Shown one piece after another: positions 3,367 through 5,438 of a DNA stretch of 64,000 nt. The DNA is from Halobacteria archaeon HArc-gm2 (GTDB taxonomy: Archaea; Halobacteriota; Halobacteria; Halobacteriales; Haloarculaceae). Position numbers and translations under genes: made by a program. Position 1 is the stretch's first letter. Each line of letters opens with the position of its first letter. The stretch is taken from assembly GCA_025517465.1 (NCBI GenBank), contig JAOPKE010000001.1, positions 1 to 64,000 on the forward strand, given 5' to 3'. The notes beneath the pieces are model-generated. The model saw only the letters and a program-made list of their open reading frames with translations, was not told where the DNA came from and ran no database searches.

Positions 3367-4344
3367 ATGGTGGTCGCGCTCCTAGGAACGCGGGACGATC
3401 CGCAGGTCCGTTCGGTCGGAGCGGCCCTCGACGACCGGGACGCCGAGTGGGAACTGTGGAACTCGGGAGACTGGCCCGGAGCGGAGCCGGTTTCCCTGTC
3501 GGTCGGTTCCGGAACTGGTCCCTCCGAGACAGATTCCCATTCTAACTTCGATTCCGAGACCGCTCCATCGGGGACCCGGACCGTCGTCGGTGAGCCAGTT
3601 AATCCGGAACGGATCACGTCGGTGTACCTCCGACGCATCGGCCTCGACCCCCGCGGTCCCGAGTTCGAGGACGACCTGGCCGACCGCCCGTACTCGCTGG
3701 TCAACCAGGTCCGGGAGTACCGGGGCCTGGTCACGTCGGTCCTCAGGCACCTCGAATCGCGCGGCGTCCCGGTCGTCAATCCGGTCGCGGCCCAGTCGGT
3801 GCACGGACTCAAACCGTACCAGCTCGCCGCGTTCGAGGACGCCGGGATCCCCGTGCCCGACACGCTGGCGACGAACGACCCCGACGCCGCGAGCGCGTTC
3901 GTCGAGCGGGTCGACGACGCCGTCTACAAACCCGTCGGCGGCGGCGGGCACGCCCGGTCCATAACGCCGGCTGATCTCGATTCGGACCGTCTCGACCGCC
4001 TCGCCAACGCCCCCGTCCAGTTCCAGGAACGCGTCGCGGGCGAGAACTACCGCCTGTTCGTCGTCGGCGGCGACGTCGTCGCGACGGGCCACATCCGGAG
4101 CGAGGAACTCGACTACCGCCTCGGCGAGCACGAGGTGGACTCGGCGTCGGTCCCTTCGGCCGTCCAACGTGCCGCGGTCCGCGCCGCCGACGTCCTCGAC
4201 CTGCGCTTCGCGGGCGTCGACGTCATCGAACGGGACGGCGAGTTCGCCGTCCTCGAAGCGAACCCCTCGCCGATGTTCGCCGCCTTCGACGAGCGGGCGG
4301 GCACCGACGTCGCCGGCCACCTCGCCGCCTTCCTCGACCGATGA
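3367..4344 (+). CDS. RimK-like ATP-grasp ligase, candidate graspetide macrocyclase
   Basis: A 325-residue ATP-grasp enzyme. The pre-ATP-grasp region ends in VVNPVAAQSVHGLKPYQL (about residues 136-153) and VPDTLATNDP (about 163-172). The latter closely resembles the IPxTLVTNDP-type motif seen in MvdD/PsnB graspetide cyclases. The ATP-grasp core shows VYKPVGGGGHAR (about 186-197), FQERVAGENYRLFVVGG (about 219-235) and the metal/ATP-binding FAVLEANPSPMF (about 293-304). Such enzymes join a carboxylate to a nucleophile through an acyl phosphate; the microviridin/plesiocin branch forms side-chain esters or amides in a precursor peptide. The gene overlaps the next one, an M50 protease, by 4 bases. 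It lies 0.9 kb from a small ORF with a TTxxxxEE core motif (5289-5438). That context, more than the fold alone, points to peptide modification. A RimK-type amino-acid ligase is the alternative. Confidence 0.85.
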   Translation: MVVALLGTRDDPQVRSVGAALDDRDAEWELWNSGDWPGAEPVSLSVGSGTGPSETDSHSNFDSETAPSGTRTVVGEPVNPERITSVYLRRIGLDPRGPEFEDDLADRPYSLVNQVREYRGLVTSVLRHLESRGVPVVNPVAAQSVHGLKPYQLAAFEDAGIPVPDTLATNDPDAASAFVERVDDAVYKPVGGGGHARSITPADLDSDRLDRLANAPVQFQERVAGENYRLFVVGGDVVATGHIRSEELDYRLGEHEVDSASVPSAVQRAAVRAADVLDLRFAGVDVIERDGEFAVLEANPSPMFAAFDERAGTDVAGHLAAFLDR

Positions 4345-5249
4345 GCGACGACGCGGAGGGGACGTTCGGGTTCACGTGGGGCGAGACGGAGGGGCTGGTG
4401 TGGTTGCGCGACGACGCGGGCAACTACAAGCGGGTCGACCGCGAGTTGCTGGTCGACCTCAGGGCCGTCGCGGCGGGCGAGCGCCGGGTCGCGGACCTCT
4501 CCGAGAAGAAGCGCGCGGCCGTCGACCACCTCCGCGAGGCCGACTTTCTCCACTCCGGTGGCTCCGTCACCCGTCACGAGACGCCACCCGGTGTCACGCT
4601 CTGGCCGCGGCTCCTCGCGTTCGGTGTCGCGTTCGCCCTGCTCACGGCCTACGTCGGCTACCGGCTCCTGATCACCGGCATGCCTGTCGGCACCGGGACG
4701 GCGCCGAGCCTCGGCGGCGGCGTCGTCGGTGACCTGCTCCTCGCCGTCCCGGTGTTCGTCGCACTCGCGCTCGTTCACGAGGCGGGCCACTACTTCGCCG
4801 CCCGCCCGTACTTCCGCCCGTCGCTGGACCTGACGCTCCTCAACGGCGTCTTCCCGGCGTTCGTGACGCGAACGAACGACGCCTGGCGCTGCCCGCGAAG
4901 CGTCCGCGTCTGGATCAACCTCGCCGGGCCGGTCCTGGACTGTCTGCAGTGTCTCGTCCTCGCGGCGCTCTCGCTGTTCGTCTTCCCCGCGTCGTACCTG
5001 CTCGCCGTCCTCCCCATTTTCGAGTACGTCCGGCTCCTCTTCTCGCTGAACCCTTTCGTCCGCGGCGACGGCTACTGGATGCTGGTCGACTGGTTCGGCG
5101 CGACGAACCTCCACACCCGAGGCGTCCGCGACCTGAAGAACCTCGAACCGAGCGTCGGTGCGCTATACGCGACGCTCTCGACGGCCGTCACGCTGTTCGG
5201 CCTCGTGATGATGGGATACGTCGCCGCGACCCTCGCCGGCCTCGTGTGA
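4341..5249 (+). CDS. Membrane M50-type zinc protease with PqqD-like N-terminal domain
   Basis: A 302-residue integral membrane metalloprotease. Residues about 15-75 look like a PqqD/RiPP-recognition (RRE-like) winged domain: YKRVDRELLVDLRAVAAG, then a helix ending in LREADFLHSGG. Membrane segments follow at about 88-110 and 128-148. HEAGH at 146-150 gives the two zinc histidines and the catalytic Glu. NPFVRGDGYWMLVDW (about 237-251) supplies the distal Asp and matches the DGYY signature of peptide zinc metalloproteases found in RiPP and bacteriocin loci. At least two more membrane segments occupy about 205-230 and 275-300. The start codon overlaps the stop of the ATP-grasp gene (ATGA), implying translational coupling. 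The likely job is leader removal or export-linked cleavage of the peptide modified by the ATP-grasp enzyme; this is inference from domains and context. Confidence 0.85.
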   Translation: MSDDAEGTFGFTWGETEGLVWLRDDAGNYKRVDRELLVDLRAVAAGERRVADLSEKKRAAVDHLREADFLHSGGSVTRHETPPGVTLWPRLLAFGVAFALLTAYVGYRLLITGMPVGTGTAPSLGGGVVGDLLLAVPVFVALALVHEAGHYFAARPYFRPSLDLTLLNGVFPAFVTRTNDAWRCPRSVRVWINLAGPVLDCLQCLVLAALSLFVFPASYLLAVLPIFEYVRLLFSLNPFVRGDGYWMLVDWFGATNLHTRGVRDLKNLEPSVGALYATLSTAVTLFGLVMMGYVAATLAGLV

Positions 5250-5288: not shown

Positions 5289-5438
5289 TCAACAACCCGT
5301 CTCGAAACACGCCATCGTGATCGGACCGCCACCGCCCTCCTCGCCCACGGCGAGTGTGGTCGGCGTCGCGATGGACGCGTTCGTCCGCTCTTCCAGGTCT
5401 TCGACGAAGTGGACTTGTTCGTCTGAACTCATGTCCAT
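5289..5438 (-). CDS. Candidate graspetide (omega-ester RiPP) precursor peptide
   Basis: A 49-codon ORF convergent with the ATP-grasp/M50 operon, 39 bases past its end. The first part (residues 1-26) is an acidic leader with a helix-like HFVEDLEERTN. Residues 27-34 read TTLAVGEE, an exact fit to TTxxxxEE, the core motif of plesiocin-type graspetides in which two Thr esterify two Glu. A GGGGP linker follows. Residues 40-47 read ITMACFET, a second repeat that keeps the inner Thr (41) and inner Glu (46) but has lost the outer pair. The peptide ends G-C. Cysteines at 44 and 49 are unusual for a haloarchaeal protein. The start at 5438 fits a leaderless mRNA; an in-frame ATG at 5432 would give 47 residues. 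Small size makes chance ORFs possible, but the motif beside these two enzymes is hard to explain by chance. Confidence 0.75.
   Translation of the reverse strand: MDMSSDEQVHFVEDLEERTNASIATPTTLAVGEEGGGGPITMACFETGC

Follow-up and report, generated by a model that had tools for sequence, protein, structure and literature searches.

Within a 64,000-nucleotide stretch of contig JAOPKE010000001.1 from Halobacteria archaeon HArc-gm2 (the window), we identified a haloarchaeal gene cluster that, on the evidence of its sequences, is a plesiocin-type graspetide cluster. This assignment was made because the ligase is nearest to PsnB and the precursor matches PsnA2. We consider it probable that the three genes work as one such cluster, including ester formation, a disulfide and removal of the leader. 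The features are as follows:

3367-4344, plus strand: ATP-grasp ligase, a PsnB-like graspetide synthetase according to sequence profile, single-sequence and fold matches
4341-5249, plus strand: M50/S2P-like intramembrane protease with an N-terminal soluble domain, candidate leader peptidase (HEAGH, GDGYW)
5289-5438, minus strand: precursor peptide gene, 49 aa, start ATG at 5438 or possibly ATG at 5432, conserved in 12 haloarchaeal species
5391-5411, minus strand: HFVEDLE (residues 10-16), the leader recognition motif, corresponding to LFIEDL of plesiocin PsnA2
5337-5360, minus strand: core repeat 1, TTLAVGEE (residues 27-34), a full plesiocin-type unit by comparison with PDB chain 7drm_E and by spacing
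5289-5321, minus strand: core module 2, ITMACFETGC plus stop (residues 40-49), with the Thr41/Glu46 inner pair, Cys44 and Cys49, found in six species

The M50 gene overlaps the ATP-grasp gene by 4 bases, both on the plus strand. The precursor gene runs towards this pair, with 40 bases between its stop and the end of the M50 gene.

The ligase profile, made from 16 ligases, matched PsnB (7drm) with an E-value of 4e-72 and the next solved protein with 5e-26. For the single ligase sequence, the values were 1.4e-45 for PsnB and 4e-12 for the next solved relative. The top 15 PDB matches of the fold model (mean pLDDT 84.7) were all PsnB chains, and the best relatives of the ligase were PsnB, then PruB, CdnC and MdnB/C-type enzymes. 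The match to TIGR04187 was 4e-31, under the cut-off of that model. In the ligase tree, PsnB sits on a long branch next to the distant haloarchaeal clade, a weakly supported placement (86/61). Taken together, sequence comparison and the predicted fold indicate that the ligase belongs to the graspetide synthetase clade. Pfam names its domain RimK, which would suit a RimK-type glutamate ligase with the small ORF as a chance neighbor. We rejected this hardly credible explanation on two grounds: no other solved protein comes near PsnB in similarity to the ligase, and 12/12 window-like loci have a precursor with the shared leader next to the ligase.

Translation of 5289-5438 (-) gives the precursor MDMSSDEQVHFVEDLEERTNASIATPTTLAVGEEGGGGPITMACFETGC. 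Repeat 1 consists of T27 T28 L29 A30 V31 G32 E33 E34 and the tail of I40 T41 M42 A43 C44 F45 E46 T47 G48 C49, in agreement with the residue numbering and both repeat readings of the first-pass annotation. No family match was found in Pfam, NCBIfam or PHROGs, and neither the precursor alone nor its profile gave a usable match in the PDB. The PsnA2 chain was reached in the PDB only through a query based on plesiocin, and the letters compared are the PDB's own. Residues 14-38 of PsnA2 (PDB chain 7drm_E, solved with PsnB) read LFIEDLGKVTGGKGGPYTTLAIGEE, ending in TTLAIGEE. The window's FVEDL-(11 aa)-TTLAVGEE and the FIEDL-(11 aa)-TTLAIGEE of PsnA2 have equal spacing and share 7/8 core letters. The plesiocin framework that had been proposed for this locus is thus supported by the PsnB-like enzyme and by the leader motif, spacing and repeat 1 of the precursor. 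A short precursor with a conserved leader and a core of Thr/Ser/Lys and Asp/Glu, an arrangement expected of graspetides, adjoins the ligase.

A same-genus genome, G138, encodes the same peptide with 94% identity, and the only differences are Met1Val, Gln8Pro and Phe45Tyr. Translation may start at Met3 instead of Met1, because codon 1 is ATG in the window and GTG in G138, and codon 3 is ATG in both. The precursor coding DNA is 96.7% identical between the two genomes, whereas similarity is clearly lower over the 160 aligned bases upstream. Five codons differ, two of them silently, which is too few for a meaningful rate test, and the case for a real gene leans on more distant relatives rather than on the substitution rate between these two copies. 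Beyond G138, 10 species in two families encode small ORFs with the same leader ([VI]HF[VI]E[DE]LEER.N), each adjoining a related ATP-grasp/M50 pair. Twelve haloarchaeal species have in common the leader F[VI]E[DE]L and the core TTxxxGE. The copies in relatives exclude a sequencing error, which had been raised as a possible source of the unusual tail. Since relatives in other genera have the same design, the conservation pattern indicates that the cysteine-containing precursor is a real variant, not a decayed gene. A search for a second precursor copy in the window's own genome found nothing beyond a chance-level match.

Six species from two families have a module 2 of the pattern [ITVL]T[ML][AS]C[FYA]ETGC:

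ITMACFETGC: window
ITMACYETGC: L034
TTMACFETGC: L003/L087, Halovivax sp. KZCA124
TTLACAETGC: L088, a relative in which repeat 1 is exactly TTLAIGEE
VTMSCAETGC: L089
LTMSCAETGC: L090

In TTxxxxEE numbering, T2, C5, E7, T8, G9 and C10 are invariant in the six species. Position 1, the outer Thr slot, is I, T, V or L, and position 8, the outer Glu slot, is always Thr. The first-pass annotation had called repeat 2 degenerate. Because the inner Thr/Glu pair never varies in the six species, nor do the two cysteines, the aligned sequences point to a conserved separate module, not to decay. The check that the annotation had suggested, conservation of the single T/E pair and of C-x4-C, came out in its favor in these six species. 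Relatives with two intact repeats and no cysteine, which would have spoken against its reading, were not found among the precursors of the 12 species.

Two further core forms occur among the relatives. In five other species the core is shorter, TT[LMT][AV][TV]GEC-PEK-C-[WS], and its letters allow a reading in which the start of repeat 1 is fused to the end of module 2. The precursor on a Halocatena salina plasmid (L053) has a single repeat, TTMAMGEE, with neither module 2 nor cysteine, and the other reading frames there hold no frameshifted second repeat. The ligase tree places the window and G138 together with Halocatena, and the remaining two-unit forms together with the fused ones; the two-unit Cys form is thus found on either side of this portion of the tree. 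A reading of repeat 2 as a plesiocin repeat in decay, with cysteines gained by chance, is very improbable and already largely refuted. The lost outer Thr and outer Glu and the missing module in L053 would fit such decay, but six positions of module 2 show no change across six species, drawn from two families with ligases sharing only about 50% identity, and five further species have two cysteines in their fused cores as well. Cysteine makes up about 0.8% of residues in the long ORFs of the window. Separately, a distant candidate precursor (L054, 5547-5669, minus strand) ends in SCHGDFWRTTYFCLELA; its TTxxCxE places Thr2, Cys5 and Glu7 in register with module 2 of the window's peptide.

In plesiocin the esters are nested, with T2-E7 as the inner and T1-E8 as the outer link. 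By analogy, the PsnB-like ATP-grasp enzyme would bind the FVEDL leader, phosphorylate the core glutamates and close side-chain esters. Repeat 1 would carry two nested esters, presumably T28-E33 and T27-E34, and module 2 would carry only one, presumably T41-E46, from its inner pair. An inner ring without an outer ring is plausible because graspetide cross-links are generally made in the N-to-C order of the acids, and the later ones fail when the inner link is lost (PMC12291112).

Cyclization of repeat 1 alone, with two esters, is an unlikely alternative reading of the same residues. Module 2 would then stay open, its Cys pair would form a disulfide or bind metal, and Thr41 and Glu46 would be kept for structure or target binding rather than for an ester. 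The absence of the outer pair from module 2 agrees with this, as do the tail invariants T47, G48 and both Cys, which fit a motif in its own right, and the C-P-E-K-C tail retained in the fused forms. However, T2 and E7 occupy the positions of the repeat 1 inner pair, at equal spacing, in 6/6 species, whereas T1 and E8 drift.

The T41-E46 ester is our preferred reading of module 2. Cys44 and Cys49 would form a disulfide after export; passing across the T41-E46 ring, it would make the second head compact. We put this disulfide at somewhat below an even chance. The chain order is T41-C44-E46-C49, with Cys44 inside the T41-E46 ring and Cys49 outside it, and so the Cys44-Cys49 link and the ester would cross, not nest. 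Of the mixed-topology product suggested in the first pass, a T41-E46 ester with a Cys44-Cys49 disulfide remains plausible. A Cys link taking the place of the outer ring does not agree with this crossing order, and a thioether is unlikely, as no recognizable lanthipeptide or radical-SAM-type enzyme lies beside the clusters compared. Several observations count against the main scheme. No disulfide-forming enzyme was seen in the window's cluster, and the Halocatena salina L053 precursor does without module 2 and its cysteines. In addition, module 2 lacks the outer pair and places a Cys inside the ring, and the sequence gives no sign that the enzyme would accept it.

Alternatively, Cys44 or Cys49 could serve the ATP-grasp enzyme as the nucleophile, and the link would then be a thioester, not a disulfide, with a Glu or the C-terminal carboxylate as partner. 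PMC12291112 and PMC13097080 describe that ester-forming ATP-grasp enzymes can form thioesters once the nucleophile is changed. C44 to the C-terminus spans 5 residues, as does T41 to E46, and in two distant clusters Cys appears to occupy the Thr slot before a single acid (SCISVE in L058, SCHVID in L094). But Cys44 and Glu46 are only two positions apart, which leaves too little room for a ring; Cys49 comes after every acid, contrary to the usual order of nucleophile before acid, and the thioesters reported so far are non-native. We regard a thioester as improbable. With the disulfide retained, the product may tentatively be pictured as a two-headed archaeal graspetide matured by a membrane protease, with a nested ester-ester head and an interlocked ester-disulfide head. 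In this two-headed form, one ring of the plesiocin hairpin might, equally tentatively, have been exchanged for a disulfide crossing the remaining ester.

The product of 4341-5249 (+) carries the HExxH and third-ligand motifs that define M50/S2P intramembrane proteases, and its sequence places it among them. HExxH (HEAGH here) and GDG are invariant in 15/15 M50 proteins. The Pfam M50 match was 5e-4, below the cut-off, and the best fold match of the protease model was SpoIVFB, a weak match (E 0.04). Its relatives are the M50 proteases of daptide (NF041824) and epipeptide (NF058609) clusters, and it falls below both curated cut-offs. Predicted strands and helices suggest that the N-terminal domain is PqqD-like. 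We infer that the M50 protein is the leader protease: it would remove the leader at the membrane and release the product outside the cell.

Compared with known systems, the cluster is closest to plesiocin (PsnA2/PsnB), with which it shares the F[IV]EDL leader, 10-13 residues to the first core, TTLAxGEE and a single PsnB-like ATP-grasp enzyme. Plesiocin has four full units, whereas the archaeal precursor has one full unit and a Cys-containing one-pair module. The several intact TTxxxxEE repeats typical of plesiocin are not present, and module 2 keeps only T2 and E7; with only one intact repeat, the cluster is a variant of the plesiocin type rather than an ordinary member. Unlike plesiocin, it has an M50 protease, and no NHLM-type transporter was seen next to it. 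Microviridin-type graspetides (MdnB/MdnC) share the ATP-grasp macrocyclase fold but differ in leader and core, and their match to the ligase profile is 2e-22 or worse, against 4e-72 for PsnB. The daptide and epipeptide systems share the family of the M50 protein but not the modifying enzyme, which in the archaeal cluster is an ATP-grasp ligase. By analogy with plesiocin, the product may inhibit serine proteases. We found no description of haloarchaeal graspetides in the literature searched, a search that lay outside the supplementary tables of the 2026 graspetide survey (PMC13097080); this survey names a Thermoprotea-only group.

The M50 gene was found in 13/391 genomes of a class-wide sample and, in four families, in 9/125, 6/146, 8/28 and 1/170 genomes. 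An ATP-grasp gene adjoins it in 25/26 loci read; the only exception, L092, comes from a fragmentary genome (60% complete). A large conserved protein of roughly 880-1100 aa lies near four clusters at varying distance (L003 550-3453, L037 6353-9004, L038 11636-14299, L035 13731-17033) and not near the window's.

Precursor candidates of the distant clusters were found by motif only, and their short cores are very varied. Some distant cores lack a clear Thr/Glu pair, and thus the ligase family is not confined to plesiocin chemistry. Candidates with the leader KH[LV][IV]..LED occur at L058 (7603-7722, minus), L094 (5349-5453, plus), L091 (8885-8986, plus) and L060 (7531-7632, minus), with cores that include STALPSCISVEML, STIVVSCHVIDVQ, STVHIVTSLIWEGY and STLVRSTLVVEAL. 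Candidate cores with little or no Asp/Glu, adjoining the same ATP-grasp/M50 pair, are TYYTGGCIAYC, VVSTPITWFGG and LTGVMGNVYFGA at L055 (8625-8723, plus), L056 (6368-6490, plus) and L093 (near 7321, minus); judging by these cores, the ligase bond perhaps goes to the C-terminal carboxylate. Three clusters have two tandem ATP-grasp genes with M50 (L059 4688-6657, L096 8002-10233, L097 8015-10106). Their candidate precursors end in TSDPTWDSQ or TS[GA]P[SH]DDK, and one lies on a Halorussus salilacus plasmid.

At least one public gene table does not list the cluster's precursor gene. In the record of a Halocatena salina plasmid (L099, NZ_CP096022.1), whose gene table is known to be incomplete, the precursor gene between 3476 and 4001 is missing and the M50 protein is annotated as hypothetical.

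As read from these sequences, plesiocin chemistry would have a place in haloarchaea, in the form of a compact three-gene cluster. The precursors offer a natural series for enzyme tests: two units with Cys, a fused unit with Cys, and a single unit without Cys. This series bears on whether a PsnB-like enzyme can make the inner ring alone, and on how a different cross-link can replace a graspetide ring.
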